From positions 2,418,001 to 2,482,000 of the forward strand of contig NZ_CP031124.1 of NCBI RefSeq assembly GCF_003339525.1: a stretch of 64,000 nt of DNA. Direction: 5' to 3'. Source of the DNA: Ephemeroptericola cinctiostellae. Lineage in GTDB: Bacteria > Pseudomonadota > Gammaproteobacteria > Burkholderiales > Burkholderiaceae. Of the stretch, positions 14,072-53,121 are shown piece by piece. Made by a program: the position numbers and the translations under genes. The notes below the pieces were generated by a model, which saw only the letters and a program-made list of their open reading frames with translations, was not told where the DNA came from and did no database searches. Each line of letters opens with the position of its first letter. Within the stretch, counting starts at the first letter, position 1.

Positions 14072-17000
14072 TTAATGCCAATTTGCAGCCATTACCAAAC
14101 TGACATTAGCGGCATAGCCTGTTGGCAAAACAGTCACTCCAGCAGCCGGTGGAGCATAAGCCGCCATGGCTTGAACCAACGCATTGACATCGGTATAAGC
14201 CAGGCTGGCTGTACCTGCTGTGATTTTCTCAATGACGGATGAGGTCTTGATGTTATTGCCACCAGCGACATACCAGTCTTTAATGGTTACTTGATCCGTC
14301 GTACCGATCACACTTACAACCAAGTCATTGTTCGTGTGCGTGAACCACAACTGCTCTTTAACAATGCCAGTTTGGAAAGCCAATACATCCGCATTGCTTG
14401 TCGTTGCATCGGTATCGTTGATGACATCTTGTCCTTCAGTGCGGGTAAACTTATAAGTGTCGTTACCAGTACCACCTAGAAGAGTGTCTGCACCCAATGC
14501 ACCTGTCAATGTGTCGTTGCCCGCATTGCCAAAAAGCTGATTATTTGTCGCATCACCCGACAAGACATCAGCACCTGAGCCACCAATGATGTTTTCAAAA
14601 TTAATAAAAGTATCTTGACCACCACCTGTCACTTGGCTTGTTGTCACCGATAGATCAGCGGTGATGGCAACACTAAAATCACTGTAGTCGACAGTATCAA
14701 CTCCTGCTCGTCCATCCATGACATCATTACCCAAACCAGCCCGAATGGTATTGCTCAGTTCATTTCCATATAGTGTATCATTGCCTCTACCACCAAGGAT
14801 TCTCTCAACATTGAGGATGGTGTCAGTTCCCGCTGTTTGAGCCATTTGAGCGGTGCTTAATGCCAAGTCTACGGTCACCGATGCGGTCATGTCACGGTAA
14901 TCAACCCAGTCCATGTCGTCTCCACCATCAATCGTATCATTGCCCAAACCGCCCATCAGCACATCAACGCCTTTGCCTCCTCTCAGATTGTCATTGCCCA
15001 CACCACCAGACAGGTTGTCACTGCCGTCATTGCCGTTTAGAACGTTGTTTAGGTTATTGCCTTTCAACACATCGTTCCCACTGCCACCATTGGCATGCTC
15101 CAAGTTCAATATTGTGTCCAGCCCAGCACCCACTGTGTTTTGCTGTGATGTGACGCTCAAATCAACGGTCACACTGGCGGTCATATCACCATAGTTCAGC
15201 CAATCATTGCCTGCACCGCCATCCAGAAAATCATTACCCAAGCCACCAAAGAGATTGTCATTTCCAGCGAAACCATAAATGGAGTCATCACCATCTTTAC
15301 CTTGTAATAGGTTGCCTAAGGCATTTCCATAGAGGTTATTATTTAAGGCATTACCTGTGATATTAACTGTTGCATCTGTTTTGTTACTTGCATCAATGTT
15401 TTCAACATTGGCCGATGCCACATAATTAATGATATTGCCATTCATTAACAGCACCGTGTCACTCCCTGAGTCAACCCCTTCAATAACCACATCACCCAGT
15501 GTGTCCACAGCATACGTGTCATCACCCGACAACCCCATCAAAACACTTTCGTCCCAAGCACCGTACATCAAACTGTATGCATCATTGGCATCGCTACCCA
15601 CACGCAAAGTTCGCACCACATTATCACTGAACTTGACTTGCTCAATCAATTGCCCAGCAAAGTAATCCGAGACACTCACCTGATCTGATACGCCATAAGC
15701 AACCACAAGGTGATTTCCTGACTTTGAGGCCGAACGTATTGAGGTGCTGGCAAAGTTGAATTGCAATGTATCCGCTCCTGCAGAGTCAGAGACCGTATCC
15801 GTGCCATCACCAACGGAGAACGCATAAGTATCATCTCCACCCATACCACTGAGTACATCATTTCCCGCTTGACCAATCAGGACATTGTTGTGGTTATTGC
15901 CATCGATGCTGTTGTTCAAGGCGTTGCCCGTGACGTTGACCGCGGCATCTGTTTTATTGCGGGTATCAATGTTTTCAACATTGGCTGATGCGGTGTAATT
16001 GACGATATTGCCATTCATTAACAGCACCGTGTCATTACCTGCATTGGCGTTTTCAACAACCACATCACCCAGACTGTCCACAGCATACGTGTCATCCCCA
16101 GACAAGCCCACCAGAACACTTTCATCCCAAGCACCGGACATCAAACTGTATGCATCATTGGCATCGCTACCCACACGTAAGGTTCGCATCACATTGTCAT
16201 TGAACTTGATTTGCTCCATAGCTCCCACAGTGAAGTGATTCTTGAGCGTCAACTCATCGCTGGCTCCATAAGCAATAACCAAATCATTGTTGACCTTCTT
16301 GATCGAACGAATCGCTGTATTGGCCATGCCCAATTGCAGCACATCAGTGCCCGCAAGGTCTGTGATACTGTCCAAGCCATCGCCAAGACCAAAGACGTAT
16401 AACTCATCGCCTAGACTATCATAAACATCATCATTGCCTTTACCCGCCACAATGGTGTCGTTACCAGCCCAACCAATGATGCGGTTACCGCCTGTATTAC
16501 CTGCCAAGGTATTATTTAAATCATTGCCTGTACCTGAAATATCATTCATACCCGTGAGGGTAAGGTTTTCTAAATTATCCCCTAAAGTAAAAGAAGCTGA
16601 AGCATTGACTTTATCTGTACCTTGGCCCTCTAGTTCCGTGATGGCGTCAGCTGAATCGTCAACCATGTAAGTGTCGTTACCCAAACCTCCGCTCAGGGTG
16701 TCTTTGCCTGTGCCACCATCAAGGACATTGTTCCCCGTGTTGCCCACCAGTCGATTGGCCAAATGATTGGCTGTTGCATTCACTGACGCAGAGCCTGTTA
16801 ACTCGATGTTTTCCACTTCATTGGACAGTTTATAAGTCACGCTTGATTTAACAGAATCAAATCCACCGCCATCAATTTCAACAATGACATCGCCAACATT
16901 GTCAACGATATAAGTGTCATTGCCTGTGCGTCCAACCATGGTGTCAGCACCCGCCAAACCATCCAGAGTATTGCCCCCTGCGTTACCTGTGATGGCGTCC

Positions 17001-20000
17001 GCAGCGGCTGTTCCCCTCACCACAGGGTCTGTGGCTTTTTTGGATGCAAATGTGGTGAGTGCCGTTATGGGTGCCCCTGTCACACTCGCATTGACCATTT
17101 GCCATGTTTGCAGTTCACTTTGATTGGCAAAGAACAACAGTTGTGAGGCATTGATTTGTGACAACGTTCGGTTCTTTAAAAGTAGGCTTTGGTTGTTTTC
17201 TAAATCCAGTTTAACATCGGCACCCACCTGAGAGGTGATGATGCCCGTTGAGCTAAAGCCAACGAATGCAATGACTTCATTGGCATTGCTCACTTCAAAG
17301 TCAACGATGATGTCTTGGCTGTTGAGGTCTTTACGTATGATGAACACATCATTGCCCGCACCACCGGTGAGTGCGTCGTTGCCCCAGTAAGCATCGAATG
17401 TGTCGTTGCCTGCTTGACCGTTCAAAACATCGTTACCACGCCCGCCGATCAGTAGGTTTTGAGCGGCATTGCCGACCAAAGTGTCATTAAACTCGCCACC
17501 AAGGATGTTTTCAATCAAAGAGGGGTTGCTGATGGTTAAGCCTTTGCCTACAATCGTTGCGGCTCCTGAAGTCAAATTAACCGTGCTTGCGCTTGAAACC
17601 GCGGCCACATTAATCGTGTCTCGACCACCATCCGTATCATTTAAAGTGGCACGTGCGCCTGCGCCCAACTGACCAAATTCGTTGGTGTAAATGTATTGGT
17701 CGTTGATTTTACCTTGTGCTCCAAAGGCTGCAAAACGCCAACTTTTCAATATCCCTGTACCACCTGTTGCTGCATCTTGAACCACCAACTTCCAATCGCC
17801 AGCAAAAGACTCGCCACGTAGCAGTGCTGTATTGAATGTGTAATTTAAATCATTGGATGAAGAATTCGAGCCATTAATGCCATCAAAAAACTTTTGCCCT
17901 GTGGCATTACTGGCTGTCACGCCTTTACGATTCATCAGTATGGATTCAGTCCCTGATGGTGAAACCAATTTAATGATCAAATCACCTGCGTTGGCATGAG
18001 TTAAGTGCACTTCGACCGTTACATGTTCAATATTTATATCCTGATCAGCTACGTTAATGCTGGATACGATAAGATTACCATCGTTATCAGGAATGGCCAT
18101 ATTTAAGACACTAAAATCATTCACTATACCGCTTTTATTATTTTGATCTGTTTCTTGTTTAGCCCATGTTTCCGCCAAGCGCACCGCAGCCCGTGCATCA
18201 ATCATCCCGTAACCATAATCATGGCTCACATGCATGCCACCACCATTCCAATTACGAGCACCATTGGTTTGCCACACTGTGTTGGGATCAATGATTTGTC
18301 TAGCGGATGCGGCGAGAATGTCTTGCACATCTCGATAACCCAAATTTGGATTGGCTTCCAACATCAATGCAATGATGCCACTGACAGTGGGTGCAGAGAA
18401 GCTGGTGCCTGAGGCCAGTGCCGTTTCATCACCAAAGGTGGAACCATTGCTGTTCTCAACCTGTAAGCCTGTGGTTGACAGGTCTTGTCCTGAAGCAGAC
18501 ACCAATAGATTGGCACCCGCTGTAGAGAACTTTGTGTCACTACTGGCGGTTAATCCAGCTTTGCTGTGATCTAAATTCACACCTGCCACCACAACGGTAT
18601 AACGGTTATTGGTCAGCCAAGAGTCGCTTGTGTTTGCGCCTGCTGCTCGATCATTACCTGCTGCATTCACAAAGACGGAACCCAAACCACCGCGTCCAGA
18701 GCTTAATGCCTCCCAATATTCAGGAGTGATGCCATTCAAACTCATTAACTGAGATAAATCGGTATTCGCTTTCCAGCTTTGGTTGATGACGTCGTAGTTT
18801 TTTAAGAACTTGTATGTGCTTAAATCCCCACCCAGCCCACCCAGCCAGTGCCCTGCAAGGCTGGCATTGTAGGCCACGCCCACATTGCCATCGTTGTTAC
18901 GTGAACTGGCAATGACACCCGCCACCATCGTTGAGTGGCGGTTGTAGTTGCCTGCATCGCCTTCACCCGCACGATCTCCCACCGTTGGATTGGCCAACCA
19001 TTTCTTATCCAAATTGCCCATCAGATCTGCATGGGTGTAGTTGAAGATTTGTGTGGTGTTGGCGAAGCCACCCGCCACTTCAAATATCCCGACTTGTACG
19101 CCTTTGCCTGTGTAGTGTTGCCAAACAGGCAACACATTGGCGTCGGTCAAGTAGGTTTGCTTGGTCAACAAAGTGTCTTGTGGCAAGTCAGCAGTTTGCA
19201 ATTTCACTTCAGCACTCACAGGGACGCCGTCGATGACCAACATGCTGCCGTTGCCCGAGTCATTTTTAAGCCGATACTTGAAGCCCATAAACCCTGTGTA
19301 GCTTGCATCGGGTGTGAACAGCACGTCGCCATCGGCATTGATGCTGGCGGTGCCACCCTTGACGTCAAACAGTTCCAATAAGGACAGGGGGTAGTTGCGC
19401 CAGTTCACATCGTTGCCAATCAATTGGGCTTTGCCGATCACTTGGGCTTGGGTGCGGTTAAGGGCAACACCTGCTTTGTTGAGGGTCAGTACATCGTCGG
19501 CGAGTAAAGGGGCTGCAAAGCCTGCACTGGTTTCGTTGGGGATGTCGACGAGCTTGATGTTGCTGAAGTTGGCTTTCTCGACATTGCGAATGAAGTCTGT
19601 GCCGTCGCGCCCTGCCACACGGTCACTGACCCACACGCCGCCATCGGCGACCATGAAGCGGTAGTCGCTGACTTGACCTCGGAAGGTGACGGCGTCCACA
19701 CCTGCGCCACCGTCCATGGTGTCGTCGCCTGCGCTGGCGGTGAGGTCATCTTCTCCTGCACCACCCATCATTTTGTCGTCATCCAGACCGCCATCGAGGA
19801 TGTCGTTGCCTGCGCCGCCCATGAGGATGTCGTTGTTTCGGTGTCCACGCAGGAGGTCGTTGCCGTCACCACCGTTGATGAGGTCGTCGCCGTTTTCGCC
19901 ATTGAGGACGTCGTTGGCGGAGCCGCCTATCATCATGTCGTTGCCGTCGCCACCGCGGACAAAGACAGTGCTGCGACCACCACCGATGATGACATCCGCA

Positions 20001-22960
20001 CCACGCCCGCCTTGAACTTGTTCGACTTCGGCTTGTGCCATGTTCAATGTGATGCCTCGGTCGCCAACGACTTGAACGATGTCATCGCCTGCACCTGCGT
20101 TGATGTTGGCTTGTAAGTCATCGGCATCAATCAAGAGGACATCATTGCCTGCGCCTGCGTTGAATACGTCGCTGCCCATGCCGCCTGCCAGCCAGTTGTT
20201 GTTGGCGTCGCCCGTCAATGTGTCGTTGCCGCGTCCGCCTGCGGCGTTGGTCACGCCTTTGCTGGTGACGTTGATGTTTTCTCCGACGAGGCTGGTGGTG
20301 GTGTAAGCTTTGATGGTGGCGTTGCCTGTGCCTGTTTGGGTGCTGGTGATGCCGCCTGTGCCTGAGGCGGTGGTGGTGCCGCCATTGGGGTTGGCGAGGA
20401 AGTTGACGGCGAGGGCTTCTTTGCTCGTGCCATTTTGGGTGAATGTGCCACGGGCAAGGACTTCGTTGCCGTCGCGGACTTCACCACTTTGTGCTTGATT
20501 GATGAGGTTGATTTGGCTGATGCCGAGGGCGGTGAGGGTTTTAAGTTCACTGGCTTCGCCTGCGTCGACAATGCCGTTGCCGTTGAGGTCTTTCCAGCTT
20601 TTGCCGTCGTGGTTATCGTCGACCCAAACTTTAACAGTGCCCCATGTGGCGTCGTTGTTGTTGAAGAGGTTGTCGTTGTTGGAGTCGAGGCTCTTAAGTG
20701 CAGCAAAGCCGTCTTTAAACGGCTTTGTTCCTGCGCTGCCTTCGGTGCCAACTGCACCACCGTAGTATTCGGATAGGGTTTCGCTGATGTTGTCGATCTT
20801 GCCGTTGGCGTTGCGGTCAACGACGACGATGCCGTCTTGGGTGGAGACCCAGCCTGTTTGTTCAAGGCTACCACCGTCATTGTCGATGTCGAACATGACG
20901 GGGTCATCAAGGAATTGGGTCAGTTTAACGCCGTCACCGTTCAAATCTAAAATCAGTGGGTCGGTCATTTGGTGGTAGCTGGAGGAGTTCGTGCTGCCGT
21001 TGTTGAGGAAGTTGGCGGTGGCAGTTTGGATGTTTTGAATGGCTTGTTGCTCTGCTGCAGGCGTCATGTTGGCGAGGTTGATGACGGTTTGGGCTTGTTG
21101 GGTGGTGGGTAGGATGGCGTTGGCGATGTTGCCGTCGTAAGGTCGGTGGTCGTTGGTGACGTTGCGAGTGGCGTTGCTGTTGGCAGTGTAGGTTGCTGCG
21201 TTGTTGTTGCCCGCGAAGTCGACCATGCTGGGGGCGACTTGGACGTTGGTGTTGGCGCTGTCTATCAGGCCGCCTTGGCTGTGGTCTATGCTGGAGGGGC
21301 TGCTGTTCGCGACTTGGGTGTCTACAGTGTTCGTTTCACTGCCGTTGGCTTGGAAACCAATGAGCTGAGTTGATTGGACGAACTTATTACTCGTTGTCTT
21401 GGTGATTGTGCCGTCGCTGTTGTTTTTATAGGTGGTTAAAGTACCATCAGATGAGATGAAAGTTTGATTAATAGATGCTATGTTACGAGATGAGTCATAT
21501 TCTTGCGTTGTCGATTGTAAAACCGAGTTACTTTTGAATAGATTAATTTCCTCTGTGCTTTGAGAGAGAGAGGTAAAACTTGCTTGACCTGTTGCTAACG
21601 TCTCTTTAATAACGCGACCATCATTGAGCACGTAGTAATCAAAATCAGGCATTTCTCCTGACGAACCAAATACGGATATCTTTTGTATGGCCTTTGCATT
21701 TCCTAAAAGAGGATAGACGGGCCCCCAGTAGTATTCTGTGGGAGATTGCCCAATACCGACTCCGACGAATCCAAAGTCGTCAGTCACTTCAATTCGATAA
21801 GATGCGCCTGTTGTGCCAGATGAGCTCCCCAAAAACGATTTAATGGCTTCTGTTCCAAAATAAGCACCTGCACCTGCGGAAGCACCGACTGCGACGGCAT
21901 AGACCAATTGCCCCACAGGGCCACCACCGACCAGCGGTGCAAAGAATCCCGCCGCAAATTCACCTGCGGCCATACCCGCAGCCCAGCCCCCAGCCAGTGT
22001 GACAGTGCCATCGGCAATGATTTTACTCGCACCATTGACATCACCTGCGGCATAGGCGGCATTGGCACGGTCGGCAATGTCTTTTATTTCCAGGGCGGTG
22101 GCTCCCACACCAATGATTCCCAAGCCTTTGGAGACGCCAGTGGTGGTTTTAACCCATTTTTCACCCACGCTCAAGTTACTCCAGCCTTCGCCCCAGATTT
22201 TAGCTTGGTCTGCGCTCATGCCTTGGATCATGCTGACTTTGAGGCTATTATTTGCTGCATTTCCATTAAGAGTATTGGCTGGTATGACCCCTGTACCCTG
22301 AAAGAAACGGCTTAAATCAACACCCGTGATTTTACCATTGGCATCCGTATTGACCTTCACATCGCTCAGCAATGCGGCTGAGCTGGCAGAAGCCGCCTTA
22401 TTGACCTCAGCCCATGAACCTGTTTTGGTGTAAATGGCTTGCAATACCTCCTTCGGTACACCATTTACATGGGTCACAGCAGCGTTTTGCATTAATTTAG
22501 GCAATTCTGTTTGTGCAAAAATTCTGTTGTCGGGAGCAAACGGTGTGATGGTGCGCACATCACCCGTGCTGTCAGCGGCAAAGCGACTGGATGAATCCGC
22601 CCATGGTCCTTGGTTCGCATCGTACAGCCAATTAGTGGCGGGGCCGCTGTAGGTGCCATCAATGATTCCGCGTGGTGCAACACCATAAACACTCGCAACT
22701 TTGGTTAGAAAAGCCTCTGACTGCAAGAACTTTGCCGCTTCGGTGTTGTCAATGATGCGCACGCTGGGGGAGCTTTGCCCCACGGCTTGTGCCAGTCCAT
22801 TGGTGTCGACATTGCCCACGCCACCACCGTATAAAACAGTCGTTGTACCCGATGCATACGTGTCCACCTGCGCTGCCAATGCACGCAATGCATCCGCCGT
22901 CGCGTATGCACTGGGGTTGGTGTTGATTAAATTGATTGCCTGAGCTGATGTTAAGGCCAT
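14072..22960 (-). CDS. Giant RTX repeat protein with subtilisin-like S8 peptidase and P domains
   Basis: 2962 residues, no Sec signal; probably exported by a type I system through its C-terminal RTX region. Order, approximate residues: 1-270 unknown; 277-375 glycine-rich hydrophobic stretch; 665-810 Asp-rich calcium-type motifs (LDLNGDG, DNHDGK, DLNGNG); 905-1130 first GGxGxDxxx block; 1140-1240 cadherin-like; 1280-1570 S8 peptidase; 1616-1757 proprotein-convertase P domain; 1830-1880 and 1975-2845 further RTX blocks. His1342 (NRHSTMVAG), Asn in VNAAGND and Ser1520 (GTSFSAP) fit the S8 active site, but the usual Asp position holds Glu1294 (VGIFEVAGG). No type I secretion genes are in the window. 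AGGGAGA ribosome site. Likely an extracellular calcium-dependent protease or adhesin-protease. Confidence 0.92.
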   Translation of the reverse strand: MALTSAQAINLINTNPSAYATADALRALAAQVDTYASGTTTVLYGGGVGNVDTNGLAQAVGQSSPSVRIIDNTEAAKFLQSEAFLTKVASVYGVAPRGIIDGTYSGPATNWLYDANQGPWADSSSRFAADSTGDVRTITPFAPDNRIFAQTELPKLMQNAAVTHVNGVPKEVLQAIYTKTGSWAEVNKAASASSAALLSDVKVNTDANGKITGVDLSRFFQGTGVIPANTLNGNAANNSLKVSMIQGMSADQAKIWGEGWSNLSVGEKWVKTTTGVSKGLGIIGVGATALEIKDIADRANAAYAAGDVNGASKIIADGTVTLAGGWAAGMAAGEFAAGFFAPLVGGGPVGQLVYAVAVGASAGAGAYFGTEAIKSFLGSSSGTTGASYRIEVTDDFGFVGVGIGQSPTEYYWGPVYPLLGNAKAIQKISVFGSSGEMPDFDYYVLNDGRVIKETLATGQASFTSLSQSTEEINLFKSNSVLQSTTQEYDSSRNIASINQTFISSDGTLTTYKNNSDGTITKTTSNKFVQSTQLIGFQANGSETNTVDTQVANSSPSSIDHSQGGLIDSANTNVQVAPSMVDFAGNNNAATYTANSNATRNVTNDHRPYDGNIANAILPTTQQAQTVINLANMTPAAEQQAIQNIQTATANFLNNGSTNSSSYHQMTDPLILDLNGDGVKLTQFLDDPVMFDIDNDGGSLEQTGWVSTQDGIVVVDRNANGKIDNISETLSEYYGGAVGTEGSAGTKPFKDGFAALKSLDSNNDNLFNNNDATWGTVKVWVDDNHDGKSWKDLNGNGIVDAGEASELKTLTALGISQINLINQAQSGEVRDGNEVLARGTFTQNGTSKEALAVNFLANPNGGTTTASGTGGITSTQTGTGNATIKAYTTTSLVGENINVTSKGVTNAAGGRGNDTLTGDANNNWLAGGMGSDVFNAGAGNDVLLIDADDLQANINAGAGDDIVQVVGDRGITLNMAQAEVEQVQGGRGADVIIGGGRSTVFVRGGDGNDMMIGGSANDVLNGENGDDLINGGDGNDLLRGHRNNDILMGGAGNDILDGGLDDDKMMGGAGEDDLTASAGDDTMDGGAGVDAVTFRGQVSDYRFMVADGGVWVSDRVAGRDGTDFIRNVEKANFSNIKLVDIPNETSAGFAAPLLADDVLTLNKAGVALNRTQAQVIGKAQLIGNDVNWRNYPLSLLELFDVKGGTASINADGDVLFTPDASYTGFMGFKYRLKNDSGNGSMLVIDGVPVSAEVKLQTADLPQDTLLTKQTYLTDANVLPVWQHYTGKGVQVGIFEVAGGFANTTQIFNYTHADLMGNLDKKWLANPTVGDRAGEGDAGNYNRHSTMVAGVIASSRNNDGNVGVAYNASLAGHWLGGLGGDLSTYKFLKNYDVINQSWKANTDLSQLMSLNGITPEYWEALSSGRGGLGSVFVNAAGNDRAAGANTSDSWLTNNRYTVVVAGVNLDHSKAGLTASSDTKFSTAGANLLVSASGQDLSTTGLQVENSNGSTFGDETALASGTSFSAPTVSGIIALMLEANPNLGYRDVQDILAASARQIIDPNTVWQTNGARNWNGGGMHVSHDYGYGMIDARAAVRLAETWAKQETDQNNKSGIVNDFSVLNMAIPDNDGNLIVSSINVADQDINIEHVTVEVHLTHANAGDLIIKLVSPSGTESILMNRKGVTASNATGQKFFDGINGSNSSSNDLNYTFNTALLRGESFAGDWKLVVQDAATGGTGILKSWRFAAFGAQGKINDQYIYTNEFGQLGAGARATLNDTDGGRDTINVAAVSSASTVNLTSGAATIVGKGLTISNPSLIENILGGEFNDTLVGNAAQNLLIGGRGNDVLNGQAGNDTFDAYWGNDALTGGAGNDVFIIRKDLNSQDIIVDFEVSNANEVIAFVGFSSTGIITSQVGADVKLDLENNQSLLLKNRTLSQINASQLLFFANQSELQTWQMVNASVTGAPITALTTFASKKATDPVVRGTAAADAITGNAGGNTLDGLAGADTMVGRTGNDTYIVDNVGDVIVEIDGGGFDSVKSSVTYKLSNEVENIELTGSASVNATANHLANRLVGNTGNNVLDGGTGKDTLSGGLGNDTYMVDDSADAITELEGQGTDKVNASASFTLGDNLENLTLTGMNDISGTGNDLNNTLAGNTGGNRIIGWAGNDTIVAGKGNDDVYDSLGDELYVFGLGDGLDSITDLAGTDVLQLGMANTAIRSIKKVNNDLVIAYGASDELTLKNHFTVGAMEQIKFNDNVMRTLRVGSDANDAYSLMSGAWDESVLVGLSGDDTYAVDSLGDVVVENANAGNDTVLLMNGNIVNYTASANVENIDTRNKTDAAVNVTGNALNNSIDGNNHNNVLIGQAGNDVLSGMGGDDTYAFSVGDGTDTVSDSAGADTLQFNFASTSIRSASKSGNHLVVAYGVSDQVSVSDYFAGQLIEQVKFSDNVVRTLRVGSDANDAYSLMYGAWDESVLMGLSGDDTYAVDTLGDVVIEGVDSGSDTVLLMNGNIINYVASANVENIDASNKTDATVNITGNALNNNLYGNALGNLLQGKDGDDSIYGFAGNDNLFGGLGNDFLDGGAGNDWLNYGDMTASVTVDLSVTSQQNTVGAGLDTILNLEHANGGSGNDVLKGNNLNNVLNGNDGSDNLSGGVGNDNLRGGKGVDVLMGGLGNDTIDGGDDMDWVDYRDMTASVTVDLALSTAQMAQTAGTDTILNVERILGGRGNDTLYGNELSNTIRAGLGNDVMDGRAGVDTVDYSDFSVAITADLSVTTSQVTGGGQDTFINFENIIGGSGADVLSGDATNNQLFGNAGNDTLTGALGADTLLGGTGNDTYKFTRTEGQDVINDTDATTSNADVLAFQTGIVKEQLWFTHTNNDLVVSVIGTTDQVTIKDWYVAGGNNIKTSSVIEKITAGTASLAYTDVNALVQAMAAYAPPAAGVTVLPTGYAANVSLVMAANWH
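15340..16230 (-). repeat. Internal duplication in the RTX gene (191-residue module)
   Basis: Two long near-identical segments are offset by 573 bases (for example 15441 and 16014), exactly 191 codons. Each encodes VRTLRVGSDANDAYSLM, GAWDESVL and DTVLLMNGNI. In-frame spacing shows module duplication within the coding region, which can shrink or expand by recombination. Confidence 0.85.
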
Positions 22961-35357: not shown

Positions 35358-35431
35358 TCGCTAAGCCTTCTAGCGTCACACCGTACTTGCCAAAACAATT
35401 GAGGAAACGCCGTTGAAGACGGTGTTCATTG

Positions 35432-35529
35432 TTGCTTGGTTGCTTGGTTGCTTGGTTGCTTGGTTGCTTGGTTGCTTGGTTGCTTGGTTGCTTGGTTGCT
35501 TGGTTGCTTGGTTGCTTGGTTGCTTGGTT
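35432..35529. repeat. Octanucleotide tandem repeat, about 12 copies
   Basis: Perfect tandem TTGCTTGG (CCAAGCAA on the other strand), 98 bases or 12.25 copies with no interruptions. It lies between the convergent vWA and hemerythrin genes, in no supported gene. Each period mixes the CCAA and GCAA tetramers familiar from phase-variable genes of Haemophilus, but here no start codon or ribosome site frames it. Confidence 0.97.
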
Positions 35530-48514: not shown

Positions 48515-49267
48515 TCACAACAAACCGTTGACCAAAGATGCCGTATCCGCCATCGACGCATACCCCGTCAAATCCACTTGCAACGGTGTCACGGACACAC
48601 GCCCCTGCGCCGTTGCATGAAAATCAGTGCCATCCGCCCCATCTTTCACCTCACCCGCCGCACCAATCCAATAATGCGCCTCACCACGGTGATTGCTCAT
48701 CACATGCACATTTTGAGCCGTATGGCGACGCCCCAAACGTGTCACTTCAAAACCTTTTAACTCAGCCAACGGCACATTTGGAATGTTGATGTTCCACAAC
48801 AAAGCCGTGCGAATATTTTTTTCTAAAAACATCTGCACAAACTGACGCGCCACCTGCGCAGCCGCCTCAATCTCACCCCAACCTCGATTCACCTGAGAAA
48901 AAGCCAACGACGGCACACCCGACAAAAACCCCTCCATTGCCGCAGCCACAGTCCCAGAATACAAAGTGTCATCACCCATGTTTTGACCGTTATTGATACC
49001 CGACACCACGATATCTGGACGGTGCTCAAAAAAACCCGTGCTCGCCAAATGCACACAATCCGTCGGCGTCCCATTCACCGTATAAAAACCATTGTCCGTT
49101 TGACGCACATTCAACGGACGATCCAACGTCAATGAATTCGACGCACCACTGCGATTTTGATCGGGCGCCATCACCGTCACATCACCCAAATCTTTCAACG
49201 CGTGATACAACGCCTCAATCCCAGGTGCATGATAGCCATCGTCATTGCTGATTAAAATTCTTGCCAT
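48515..49267 (-). CDS. surE: 5'/3'-nucleotidase SurE
   Basis: About 250 residues; two ATGs possible (49276, 49267), the inner one giving [11 protein letters not shown] as usual for the family. Metal-binding ISNDDG, GASNSLT, GTPTDCV and [19 protein letters not shown] match SurE, a survival-linked nucleotidase. First gene of surE-pcm-nlpD-rlmD. Likely promoter in the region 49290-49370. Confidence 0.94.
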
Positions 49268-49363
49268 TGTTGCCATTGCCCCTTATTCACCTCAAAGTAT
49301 ATCCACGATCTAAACCATGGACTTGATTAGACCACATTATAATGAGTTTGAGCATTATTGGAC

Positions 49364-49391
49364 TTGCTTTAAGTCAAAAAAACGCTATAAT
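49364..49391 (+). promoter_or_regulatory. tRNA-Pro promoter
   Basis: -35 TTGCTT (49364-49369), 16-base spacer, -10 TATAAT (49386-49391), ending nine bases before the tRNA. G+C-rich discriminator GTGCGCTCT follows, as expected for stable-RNA promoters. Confidence 0.8.
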
Positions 49392-49399
49392 GTGCGCTC

Positions 49400-49477
<78 letters not shown>

Positions 49478-49486
49478 AATATAGTA

Positions 49487-50229
49487 GGGTCTTAGGAAGC
49501 AAACGCATTAAAATATGCGCTAAGCTCTTGAGACCAAATGAAAAACAAGTACTTCAAACATTCAAAAATTAGCGAAGCGAAGTTTCGCCAAATTTTACGG
49601 TATTTTGCCCTTGATTTAACGGCAACGGAATGTGCTGCGTTAAGCGGCATATCCGTTCGTTCAATCAACACCATTTACCTCAAGATTCGTCGTCGTTTGG
49701 TGATTGTTTGTCTCCAAGGCTCACCACTCAAAGGAGAGTTGGAAGCCGACGAATCATATTTTGGTCCGCATCGTGTTCGAGGTAAACGCGGACGTGGTGC
49801 TTCAGGTAAAACCATCGTGTTTGGTTTACTCAAACGTGATGGCAATATCTACACTGAGATTGTGCCTGATGCTTCCAAAGCCAGCCTGCAAGCCATTATT
49901 CGTGGGAAAGCAGACATTAACAGCGTTATCCATACCGATGGTTGGCGCGGCTATAATGGCTTGGTGGACATCGGGTTTGATAAACACTTCCGGGTGAATC
50001 ATGGTGCCGATGAGTTTGTAAATGGTTCTAATCATGTGAATGGGATAGAATCATTCTGGAGCTATGCTAAACGTCGTTTGGTTCAGTTTAACGGCGTTCC
50101 GAAAAACACATTTTTACTGCATTTGAAGGAAACTGAATTTAGGTTTAACCATCGCAAAAGCGACTTGTATAAAGTGCTTCTTAACATGCTGCGAGATGAG
50201 CCGTTATTGAATTCTGCTTCCTAAGACCC
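49487..50229 (+). mobile_element. IS1595-family insertion sequence
   Basis: 743 bases bounded by perfect 15-bp inverted repeats: GGGTCTTAGGAAGCA (49487-49501) and TGCTTCCTAAGACCC (50215-50229). One transposase gene fills most of it. The eight flanking bases differ on the two sides (atatagta and gttattat), so no target duplication is visible. Placed right after a tRNA gene. Confidence 0.9.
49538..50224 (+). CDS. IS1595/ISXO2-like transposase
   Basis: 228 residues. N-terminal helical DNA-binding part (FRQILRYFALDLTATECAAL), then a DDE/DDN-type core: ELEADESYFG, IHTDGWRGYNGL and HVNGIESFWSYAKRRL, the ISXO2-like (DDE_Tnp_IS1595) signature. Frame is intact from ATG to TAA and the stop lies inside the right inverted repeat, so it may still be active. 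The usual N-terminal zinc-ribbon of larger IS1595 members is absent, as in short members. Confidence 0.92.
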   Translation: MKNKYFKHSKISEAKFRQILRYFALDLTATECAALSGISVRSINTIYLKIRRRLVIVCLQGSPLKGELEADESYFGPHRVRGKRGRGASGKTIVFGLLKRDGNIYTEIVPDASKASLQAIIRGKADINSVIHTDGWRGYNGLVDIGFDKHFRVNHGADEFVNGSNHVNGIESFWSYAKRRLVQFNGVPKNTFLLHLKETEFRFNHRKSDLYKVLLNMLRDEPLLNSAS

Positions 50230-50614
50230 GTTATTATTTAACCATTCTGTTTTTATCAGTGTTGTAACAGTGATTTGGCCATTATAAGTCGCTGTCATCT
50301 ATGACAACAGCCAAAAAATGATACTTGAAAACAAAAGCTGTTAAAAAAGCAGCGGCTGGTTTGCAGTTCAGTACATCGAAGAACTGCTGTTATGCGTAGT
50401 CATCTAAAAGTTGTCTTAAATTTTATAAGGCTTGCCTGTTTCGATTAAGGATGGTTGACTTCCTCAAAGCCCATTTGTTTCACATCCATGCTGGCTTCTC
50501 TTTTATTTTTTATCATGGTTCGCATGATATGGAGCCAGAATGCATGTCTGTCAGTAAAACAGCGGTATTCATGGTGTTTTCATTGCAACGTCAATGATTT
50601 GCTTAAAAAACAAT
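50230..50614. other. Non-coding stretch between IS and DnaA-box array
   Basis: 385 bases with no convincing gene. It contains an imperfect GCTGTCAT/ATGACA hairpin at about 50291-50311. A 93-codon open frame (from 50455) lacks a ribosome site and runs into the repeat array, so it is not called. Confidence 0.5.
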
Positions 50615-51565
50615 CAAACCAGTACAACCATTTGTTTTTAATAAACTTTCAGTCTTTTATACAACACAACCCACACGCTTATCCACAGCTTTTGTGGACA
50701 ATGCACTTAAAAACCATCAAAAAATACGGTAAATGACTGCAAAGTGACTGCAAAATGGTCATGAAGTGATGAGACATTGCTGTTTCAACCATTTTTCACC
50801 ATAAATAAGCGTGTTGCTTACATTTTATACAAATCAGGCTAACCAATTGTTTTTTATTATATTTTCATGTTTTATACAGCACAACCCACACGCTTATCCA
50901 CAGCTTTTGTGGACAATGCACTTAAAAAACCATCAAAAAATACGGTAAATGACTGCAAAGTGACTGCTTCATAGTCATGAAGTGATGAGACATTGCTGTT
51001 TCAACCATTTTTCACCATAAATAAGCGTGTTGCTTACATTTTATACAAATCAGGCTAACCACTTGTTTTTCATCATTTTTTCATATTTTATACAGCACAA
51101 CCCACACGCTTATCCACAGCTTTTGTGGACAATGCACTTAAAAACCATTGAAAAATATGGTAAACAATCACGAAGTGACTGCAAAATAGTCATAAAATGA
51201 TGAGACATTGCTGCTTCAACCATTTTTCACCATAAATAAGCGTGTTGCTTACATTTTATACAAATCAGGCTAACCACTTGTTTTTCATCATTTTTTCATA
51301 TTTTATACAGCACAACCCACACGCTTATCCACAGCTTTTGTGGACAATGCGCTTAAAAAACATAAAAAACACAGTAAATGGTCGCAAAGTGACTGCAAAA
51401 AGGTCATGAAGTGACAATGCATTGCCGTTTCAATCATTTTTCACCTTAAATAAACGTGTTGCTTATATTTTACACAAATCAAGTTAACCACTTGTTTTTC
51501 ATGGTGTTTTGATGTTTTATACAACGTAACCCACATGCTTATCCACAATTTTTGTGGACAGTGAT
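50615..51565. repeat. Tandem array of ~215-bp units, each with an inverted DnaA-box pair
   Basis: Four near-identical units plus partial ends. Each contains a perfect DnaA box TTATCCACA at 50679, 50894, 51110, 51325 and 51539 (spacing 215, 216, 215, 214), followed five bases later by an opposing TGTGGACAA, whose reverse complement TTGTCCACA is one base off consensus. The second end is TGTGGACAG in the last copy. Shared unit parts include an A+T-rich stretch ending TTTTATACA, the word GTGACTGCAAA, GATGAGACATTGCTG and ATAAGCGTGTTGCTTA. No gene is encoded. Likely binds DnaA: a titration site or an origin-like element. The array lies between an IS/tRNA-Pro and a Kbp-like gene. Confidence 0.9.
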
Positions 51566-51617
51566 CTGCTCTCTTTTTCACGGTGTGCTGTGTATCCTTA
51601 TGTGCGAAACGGAGCGC

Positions 51618-51650
51618 CATAAAAAAAACCAGCTGAAGCTGGTTTTTTTA
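51618..51650 (-). terminator. Terminator after the BON-LysM gene
   Basis: Stem AACCAGC / GCTGGTT (51627-51633, 51638-51644), tetraloop TGAA, flanked by A and T runs on both sides, so bidirectional in form. It insulates the DnaA-box array from the gene to its right. Confidence 0.93.
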
Positions 51651-51660
51651 ACATGGCACA

Positions 51661-52131
51661 TTACAGTTTTGGAATGCGCAAGTTTTGACCTGGGTAGATT
51701 TTGTCTGGTGAGCTCAACATTGGTTTGTTGGCTTCAAAAATCACATTGTATTTGTTTGCATCGCCGTACACTTCTTTGGAAATGTGTGACAATGTGTCGC
51801 CCGATTGAACGGTGTGGAACTGTGGCTCTTCAGCTGCAGGTGCTGTCATGTTGTCATTCACACATGAAACGCCGCTGACGTTGCCTGCGCATAACAAAAT
51901 TTTCTCTTTGTCTTCTTGTGTCGCAGCATCGCCCGATACAGTCACGGTTGAAGTTGCACCATCAAAAGCCACTGCCAAATTACTTGCGCCCAAACCCATT
52001 GAGCTGATGTAATCAAGAATCGCTTGTGAAGCACTTTGATTCGCGGCGGCTGGATCTGCAGCTTGCTCTTCTTCATGTTTGCTGCCAAACAATTTTTGAC
52101 CGGCTTCTTTTAAGAAACTGAACATACCCAT
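51661..52131 (-). CDS. kbp: BON-LysM protein, Kbp/YgaU-like
   Basis: 156 residues, no signal peptide. Begins MGMFSFLKEAGQKLFG; BON domain about residues 30-95 (GATSTVTVSGDAATQEDKEK), LysM about 105-155 (HTVQSGDTLSHISKEVYGD and IFEANKPMLSSPDKIYPGQ). Same architecture and wording as E. coli Kbp (YgaU), a cytoplasmic potassium-binding protein used in osmotic stress. AGGAG site. Potassium binding is inferred from the homology. Confidence 0.88.
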   Translation of the reverse strand: MGMFSFLKEAGQKLFGSKHEEEQAADPAAANQSASQAILDYISSMGLGASNLAVAFDGATSTVTVSGDAATQEDKEKILLCAGNVSGVSCVNDNMTAPAAEEPQFHTVQSGDTLSHISKEVYGDANKYNVIFEANKPMLSSPDKIYPGQNLRIPKL

Positions 52132-52223
52132 AATGAACTCCTGATAATAAATTCTTCAAATTGTCGCATGCGACAGTCCTTGCAGCTCAATCGTGAACTG
52201 CGATATGAGCATAACACAAAAAT

Positions 52224-52256
52224 AAAAAAGTGAAAGCCTGCGCTTTCACTTTTTTA
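52224..52256 (-). terminator. Terminator after pssA
   Basis: Stem AGTGAAAGC / GCTTTCACT (52229-52237, 52242-52250), tetraloop CTGC, with A run before and T run after, so functional in form on both strands. Confidence 0.88.
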
Positions 52257-52323
52257 CGAGCTTGAATATTAAATGCCTTTAGGCGCGTGTGCAACAAATC
52301 ATGAGCAATGGTGGTTGCCTGCT

Positions 52324-53121
52324 TTATGGCTGTCGATGTAATTTGTGCATAGCACCCAATACATAACCAGACAAAGCATAAGCCACAAACAAAGCAAACA
52401 GCATCAATGATGGTTTCATGGTGACCGCCAGCATGATACCAACAAACAAGAGCAACTTTGGAAACGTCACCGAGTGGCGAATGTCCATGGCTTTACCGCT
52501 GTAATAAGGTAAATTCGTAATCATCGATATGCCCGCAAACAACGTGATCGCCAGTGCGCAATATGGTAAATATGCGCCTTCAATGAACACCCTCTCTTCA
52601 GACACCAGCCACACAAAACCCGCGACCAAAGCAGCCGCAGATGGGCTGGGTAAACCTTGAAAATAACGTTTGTCGACGACACCAATGTTGGCATTGAATC
52701 GAGCCAAACGCAGTGCCGCGCACACGCAATAAATAAAGGCGACGATTAAACCCAAGCGCCCCAACCCGAGTCCTTTGAGCTGCCATTCGTAGACGATCAA
52801 GGCTGGTGCAACGCCAAATGAGACCATGTCCGCCAAGCTGTCGTATTGTTCGCCAAACGCGCTTTGGGTGTTGGTCAAACGCGCCACGCGGCCATCCATG
52901 CCATCGAGCACCATTGAACAAAAAATAGCAATTGCGGCATCACTGAACTCACCATTCATGGCTTTGATGATGGCAAAAAAAGCACAAAATAACGCCGCCG
53001 TCGTGAAGGCATTGGGCAGCAGGTAGATGCTTTTATGACGATGCGCACGAACAATGGGATCCTGCACATCGTCGTCTTCGCTCACAACACGCAAATGGCT
53101 TGGTTTTTCACGTTGATCCAT
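52324..53121 (-). CDS. pssA: CDP-diacylglycerol--serine O-phosphatidyltransferase
   Basis: 265 residues from ATG at 53121 (GGGGAG just upstream); longer frames overlap psd and lack a site. Integral membrane CDP-alcohol phosphatidyltransferase: motif DGMDGRVARLTNTQSAFGEQ followed by YDSLAD gives the conserved Asp set. About seven hydrophobic helices. Makes phosphatidylserine for psd. The cytoplasmic N-terminal 35 residues are charged. Type II, Bacillus-like Pss rather than E. coli PssA. Confidence 0.93.
   Translation of the reverse strand: MDQREKPSHLRVVSEDDDVQDPIVRAHRHKSIYLLPNAFTTAALFCAFFAIIKAMNGEFSDAAIAIFCSMVLDGMDGRVARLTNTQSAFGEQYDSLADMVSFGVAPALIVYEWQLKGLGLGRLGLIVAFIYCVCAALRLARFNANIGVVDKRYFQGLPSPSAAALVAGFVWLVSEERVFIEGAYLPYCALAITLFAGISMITNLPYYSGKAMDIRHSVTFPKLLLFVGIMLAVTMKPSLMLFALFVAYALSGYVLGAMHKLHRQP

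Follow-up and report, generated by a model that had tools for sequence, protein, structure and literature searches.

A tandem array of five DnaA-box cassettes, probably of DARS type, at mid-arm in a Burkholderiaceae chromosome

The closest described systems are the E. coli loci DARS1, DARS2 and datA. DARS1 and DARS2 are described as containing three DnaA boxes with a common spacing, in which box I is opposed to boxes II and III (PMC5742627; PMC8682772), and minimal datA as boxes 2, 3 and 7 together with one IHF site (PMC5742627). The relative distance to the origin in E. coli is given as 0.21 for DARS2, 0.33 for DARS1 and 0.10 for datA (PMC5010248). In E. coli, DnaA ChIP-seq favours box pairs with a gap of 2 or 3 bp (Stringer et al. 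2024, PMC11317965). DARS are placed by one review in E. coli-proximal beta- or gamma-proteobacteria (PMC5742627), and another paper describes the DARS2 core as conserved among E. coli-related gamma-proteobacteria and, like Fis, restricted to them (PMC4245941). A literature search over titles and abstract openings, of partial coverage (earlier descriptions may exist), returned no report of DARS in Burkholderiaceae or of a tandem DARS array.

Stretches of E. coli K-12 around DARS1, DARS2 and datA were scanned loosely for three-box triples. DARS1 (bioD-uvrB) gave the triple TAATACACA, 3 bp, TTATCCACA, 5 bp, inverted TTATCCACT, and DARS2 (near rppH-mutH) the triple TTCTTCACA, 3 bp, CTATCCACA, 5 bp, inverted TTATTCACC; order, orientation and spacings are in both cases those of the array units described below. 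Further triples in the DARS2 stretch had spacings of 3/8, 2/-2 and 4/6, and of 3/7 for the same core; the 3/5 triple is taken here as the published core. In the 6-kb datA stretch the same loose scan found no 3/5 triple, the arrangement present in the array units, and the only opposed pair of boxes matching at least 8/9 bases is 3 bp apart, as against 5 bp in the array units.

The window, i.e., the whole 64,000-bp stretch analysed, covers positions 2418001-2482000 of the single 2.72-Mb contig of the source genome (G000). It contains a tandem repeat at 50626-51560 with a period of 215, 4.3 copies, 89% matches and a score of 1418 (TRF). Perfect TTATCCACA boxes (box B) begin at 50679, 50894, 51110, 51325 and 51539, at distances of 215, 216, 215 and 214 bp. 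The five regularly spaced box pairs in a ~215-bp tandem repeat that the original prediction had described are thereby borne out, and the opposing near-consensus box five bases away is present in 5/5 units. The opposed pair was listed correctly; what had been overlooked is a further box-like 9-mer that precedes every TTATCCACA by 3 bp. Within a unit, box A (CAACCCACA) is followed after 3 bp by box B and, another 5 bp on, by box C (TTGTCCACA) in inverted orientation. Box A is CAACCCACA in units 1-4 and TAACCCACA in unit 5, always 3 bp before box B; box C is TTGTCCACA except in unit 5, where it is CTGTCCACA with two mismatches, and the 5-bp gap is kept in 5/5 units. Compared with the published consensus TT[A/T]TNCACA, box A matches at 6/9 bases, and at 7/9 in unit 5. 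The array and its cores are as follows.

50626..51560, + strand, tandem array of ~215-bp period with five DARS-type cores (TRF; the repeat ends downstream of the fifth core)
50667..50701, + strand, unit 1 core: box A 50667-50675, box B 50679-50687, inverted box C 50693-50701
50882..50916, + strand, unit 2 core: box A 50882-50890, box B 50894-50902, inverted box C 50908-50916
51098..51132, + strand, unit 3 core: box A 51098-51106, box B 51110-51118, inverted box C 51124-51132
51313..51347, + strand, unit 4 core: box A 51313-51321, box B 51325-51333, inverted box C 51339-51347
51527..51561, + strand, unit 5 core: box A 51527-51535 (TAACCCACA), box B 51539-51547, inverted box C 51553-51561 (CTGTCCACA)

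DnaA boxes with at most one mismatch number 27 in the window against 15.7 expected, the maximum of 100 shuffles being 25; the opposed pair of the array did not occur in any of the 100 shuffles. Nine boxes of at least 8/9 lie within 1 kb at the array, compared with 0.27 per 950 bp and a maximum of 3 in any 950 bp elsewhere in the source genome (20 sampled 20-kb stretches, 400 kb). The exact TTATCCACA occurs 44 times in the whole source genome. Opposed pairs of boxes of at least 8/9 were found six times in 674 kb of it, all with 5 bp between the boxes, four in the array and two in a cluster between hemE and priA; none was found in 918 kb of named loci retrieved with the LysM protein.

Three boxes at the DARS spacing, one of them opposed, are present in 5/5 array units, with box A weak (6-7 of 9); boxes C, B and A of the array would correspond to boxes I, II and III of DARS. 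DARS1 shares with the array a perfect middle box, but is single-copy, and over the 620 bp scanned the Fis consensus matches it once, at -255. DARS2 shares the mid-arm position. It is present once in E. coli as opposed to five times in tandem here, and the box sequences differ; on its box-A side the IHF pattern is matched with one mismatch at -99 and at -83, and the Fis consensus at -137, whereas the accessory sites are closer in the array (-54 and -78). The gene neighbourhoods of DARS1 (bioD-uvrB) and DARS2 (rppH-mutH) were not found at the array, i.e., there is no synteny, a trait that matters only for orthology with either site, and a search of E. coli genomes with the 56-bp core gave one plasmid match (E = 4). 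Boxes A and B also resemble the double DnaA boxes of E. coli, same-direction pairs 3 bp apart (PMC11317965), to which the array adds an inverted third box 5 bp on, the whole being repeated five times.

The array probably represents five tandem compact copies of DARS, closest in layout to DARS2, that turn ADP-DnaA into ATP-DnaA. The box geometry, its conservation, the position of the Fis-consensus site and the mid-arm place are observed features of the locus; release of ADP on the array units would be expected by analogy with E. coli. ADP-DnaA left after initiation would bind boxes A and B head-to-tail and box C head-to-head, the opposed pair B/C allowing head-to-head DnaA contacts of the kind known from E. 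coli work, while Fis and IHF would bend the flank on the box-A side. ADP would then be released from DnaA, and apo-DnaA would depart and take up ATP. Tandem copies would raise the dose of recharging sites and so help to determine when initiation next occurs. With five consecutive units the recharging capacity might be greater, and DnaA perhaps also be held, a suggestion without known precedent.

Cassettes of this type are not confined to the array. The source genome has three further cassettes between hemE and priA (the two genes being identified by Pfam in the source genome and by eye in the other genomes of the genus), and a hemE-priA cassette is present in 6/6 genomes of the genus: three in G000 and G002, two in G005 and one in each of G001, G003 and G004. 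Pattern searches allowing 2 or 3 mismatches, in genomes that are for the most part drafts (completeness of G004, 85%), give cassette counts of 8 in G000, 5 in G002, 5 in G005, 2 in G003, 1 in G001 and 1 in G004. At the array locus beside the LysM gene, G002 has two units at a contig edge, and perhaps more, and no array was found at this locus in G001, G003, G004 and G005. It is also absent from the same locus of Hydromonas duriensis DSM 102852 (L049; identical to G005 over 3468 bp), a species of the source genome's genus that is classed among Burkholderiaceae (PMC12634028). One cassette of G003 precedes a gene for a PstS-like binding protein. In G005, two DARS-type cassettes at C2:100354 and C2:148843 (L129 and L134), 48 kb apart, are alike over ~100 bp by eye, as if the cassette had been copied.

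Of 20 stretches retrieved, one (L191) lacked a known match place. Nine of the 20, together with L147, L164 and L175, had their adjacent ORFs catalogued, and at six loci outside the genus the neighbouring genes were submitted to Pfam. In genus g22, G083 and G069 have the cassette between hemE and priA; in G026 of the same genus the contig starts just before the cassette and priA alone is visible, and an ImpB/MucB-type polymerase gene is close to a cassette of G026. Both g10 genomes and the one g12 genome that were checked have a cassette after a Mg-chelatase/ComM-like gene; in one genome each of g10 and g12 an FMN-reductase gene is close by.

For the accessory sites, 26 cassettes from the genus and g22 were aligned on box B. 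Left out were weak triples (e.g., window 56159, L024 7274, L201 1058, L202 1745, L129 623, and L134 369 and 2204), the same palindromes read from the reverse strand, and both cassettes from E. coli. The Fis consensus GnnYAnnnnnTRnnC (PMC8682772) matched 22 times, 20 of these at -78/-77 from box B in 20/26 cassettes. With shuffled flanks, on average 0.04 cassettes and never more than 2 matched at this offset (2000 shuffles), which was picked after viewing the alignment of cassettes that are related to one another. In the array, a DARS2-type Fis site is predicted by the consensus in 4/5 units, at -78. An IHF-like site with one mismatch lies at -54 in 5/5 array units, such matches occurring at other offsets too; in 14/14 hemE-priA-type cassettes and in the PstS-side one, an IHF-like site with 0-1 mismatch lies at -110/-109. 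The predicted sites of the array are listed below, those for Fis without strand.

50601..50615, Fis-like site of unit 1 (by eye, GnnYAnnnnnTRnnC with one mismatch; no match in the consensus scan)
50816..50830, Fis-consensus site of unit 2 (full match to GnnYAnnnnnTRnnC)
51032..51046, Fis-consensus site of unit 3 (full match)
51247..51261, Fis-consensus site of unit 4 (full match)
51461..51475, Fis-consensus site of unit 5 (full match)
50625..50637, - strand, unit 1 IHF-like site (one mismatch to YAANNNNTTGATW; weak)
50840..50852, - strand, unit 2 IHF-like site (one mismatch to YAANNNNTTGATW; weak)
51056..51068, - strand, unit 3 IHF-like site (one mismatch to YAANNNNTTGATW; weak)
51271..51283, - strand, unit 4 IHF-like site (one mismatch to YAANNNNTTGATW; weak)
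51485..51497, - strand, unit 5 IHF-like site (one mismatch to YAANNNNTTGATW; weak)

The source genome encodes a Fis homologue (E 1.3e-11, 40% identity over residues 28-97 of E. coli Fis). Its DnaA retains D269, R285, R281 and K178 of E. coli; L290, on which the E. coli DARS2 oligomers depend, is replaced by I, and R245 by G. A second Bac_DnaA-domain match, in a 232-aa frame, may be Hda.

E. coli datA is about 1 kb in size and resembles the array in its several DnaA boxes and nearby tRNA genes. At a datA-like or simple titration locus the boxes would hold DnaA or promote ATP hydrolysis, delaying initiation. The dense perfect boxes within ~1 kb and away from the origin would suit such a role, as would the opposed box pair that datA also has, though 3 bp apart; the tandem arrangement adds binding capacity, and some titration is likely whatever else the array does. 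However, the datA stretch is without the 3/5 triple that the array units have, and the relative distance to the origin is 0.24 for the array and 0.10 for datA (PMC5010248). Pure titration would need neither the fixed 3/5 spacing nor a Fis site at a fixed offset. The tRNA gene, which had been counted as a datA-like feature, is separated from the array by an IS1595-type element (transposase PF12762), and the neighbours are SurE, tRNA-Pro, IS1595 and the LysM gene:

49401-49477, tRNA-Pro

The datA analogy of the original prediction is not supported, the three-box geometry matching DARS1 and DARS2 and not the datA stretch; its view of a repeated-unit DnaA control locus that is not an origin stands. 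Titration of the datA kind is a weaker rival to the DARS reading and is unlikely to be the role of the array. The interpretation has moved from datA to DARS. The IS element itself is short (49487-50229) and has 15-bp identical terminal repeats at 49487-49501 and 50215-50229. An Rfam scan of 49000-53000 gave four rows, of which the tRNA alone reached the gathering score.

The array could also be a satellite that spread by slippage from one ancestral DARS cassette, its extra copies being functionless. The cores of units 1-4 are identical, and both accessory and spacer segments are 84% identical among them, as is typical of recent tandem duplication; the other genomes of the genus show at most two units at the array locus in the sequence compared. 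Against this, the arrays of G000 and G002 have a mean identity of 88% in the core, 74% in the accessory segment and 56% in the spacer, and unit 5, with a spacer identity of 55% and a diverged flank, yet keeps its three boxes, the Fis-consensus site and the IHF-like site. A functionless satellite is quite improbable. The comparison with G002 also weakens the contrary case that the original prediction had named, a random satellite with the box as its only conserved word. The hemE-priA orthologues of G000 and G002 are 98% identical in the core, 96% in the accessory segment and 84% in the spacer. Between the array and the hemE-priA cassettes, accessory identity (61%) is about that of the spacer (59%), and single words such as the Fis site therefore stand out alone. 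Judged from these alignments, the boxes are not the sole conserved word, and across loci the accessory conservation rests on single words. The claims of other conserved words, of which the Fis-consensus site is one among those upstream, and of a DnaA-related, non-origin control locus of repeated units hold up well.

The geometry of the DARS-type core was followed across the class and the family. Opposed pairs of perfect boxes (TTATCCACA N{0,14} TGTGGATAA) were listed in 114 class genomes. There are 64 such sites in 46 genomes, and 64/64 have a gap of 5 bp; the reversed control gave one match in the same 114 genomes (G459, both strands). The source genome gives no opposed perfect pair because box C is TTATCCACA in none of its cassettes. 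Box A is also seen by eye at the 3-bp position in 20 of the first 21 opposed-pair sites among the matches listed, G489:C77 being the exception. The three-box pattern with at most 2 mismatches is found in 213/274 class genomes, and the Hydromonas-derived pattern with at most 3 mismatches in 182/398 family genomes, match places being known for part of the matches in both tables; the reversed pattern scored 0 in the rows of both (274 class and 398 family genomes). With 8 cassettes, G000 ranks first among the 398 family genomes. In the class table, the 8 three-box matches of G462 are 7 distinct sites. The copies are dispersed in nine multi-match genomes, the closest distinct pair being 401 bp apart in G603. 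A match in G010 proved to be an A+T-rich stretch (L028 4380-4409) and was rejected; no DnaA box of at least 8/9 was found in L028 3900-4907.

Exact DARS box geometry is thus extended to Burkholderiaceae and to 213/274 sampled class genomes, and natural tandem amplification is seen with 1 to 8 cassettes per genome within one genus. This suggests that the Burkholderiaceae lineage of the source multiplies recharging sites in tandem. More tentatively, and with slightly less than even confidence, recharging may be tuned by copy number in the manner of a rheostat: a tandem array of five and a three-unit cluster, with a dose (1-8 cassettes in six genomes of the genus) that evolves by repeat expansion, and behind it a class-wide rule of opposed pairs exactly 5 bp apart that would make DARS predictable across most Gammaproteobacteria in the GTDB sense. 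The relation of DARS dose to initiation timing becomes testable with natural variants or with altered unit number. Close pairs occur in other families as well: three-box cassettes 401 bp apart at C1:2379301 and 2379702 of G603 and, among the matches listed, cassettes 325 bp apart at C206:51221 and 51546 of G653 are possible small DARS clusters.

ORFs of at least 80 aa that reach into the array region are 50455-50736 and 51552-51878 only; apart from these two short ORFs the array is intergenic and lies between oriC and terC, as do DARS. The cumulative GC skew has its minimum at 414 kb, beside dnaA-dnaN (272-508 kb examined), and the sign of the skew turns back between about 1.65 and 1.77 Mb in sampled stretches of the source genome:

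411961-412449 of the source genome, dnaA domain

Calculated by hand, the array at 2469 kb is about 666 kb from dnaA, i.e., 0.24 genome lengths or half of the arm, and the hemE-priA cluster 482 kb, or 0.18 of the genome. The array is not oriC, because GC skew places the origin beside dnaA, ~0.24 genome lengths off; the original prediction had considered a classic oriC less likely, and indeed neither the skew switch point (414 kb, against 2469 kb for the array) nor a dnaA neighbourhood is found there. A DnaA-dependent origin, or the remnant of a plasmid or chromid origin with iterons, is extremely unlikely: repeated DnaA boxes beside A+T-rich DNA would fit it, but the skew minimum within 272-508 kb lies beside dnaA-dnaN, a plasmid search with the whole array gave no match, no replication initiator was found among ten neighbouring proteins scanned, and the three-box pattern recurs across the class. 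Readings as an integron attC site or a MITE were dropped once the 3/5 box geometry matched DARS.

At C1:443165-443318 of G000 (L026), 30 kb from dnaA, three perfect DnaA boxes and A+T-rich DNA form a cluster resembling an origin. As a candidate origin it was rejected, since the skew minimum favours 414 kb and the dip at 443 kb is shallower. At 35431-35529 of the window, the perfect 8-bp repeat GTTGCTTG is present in 12.4 copies after a TerF-type vWA gene; the ORF spanning it gave no Pfam match. The repeat could serve as a phase-variation switch if located within a gene or promoter, because its unit length is not a multiple of three. A 2962-aa protein encoded at 14072-22960 of the window has a subtilase domain, a P-domain and 15 RTX calcium-binding repeat matches, and is probably a secreted protease.
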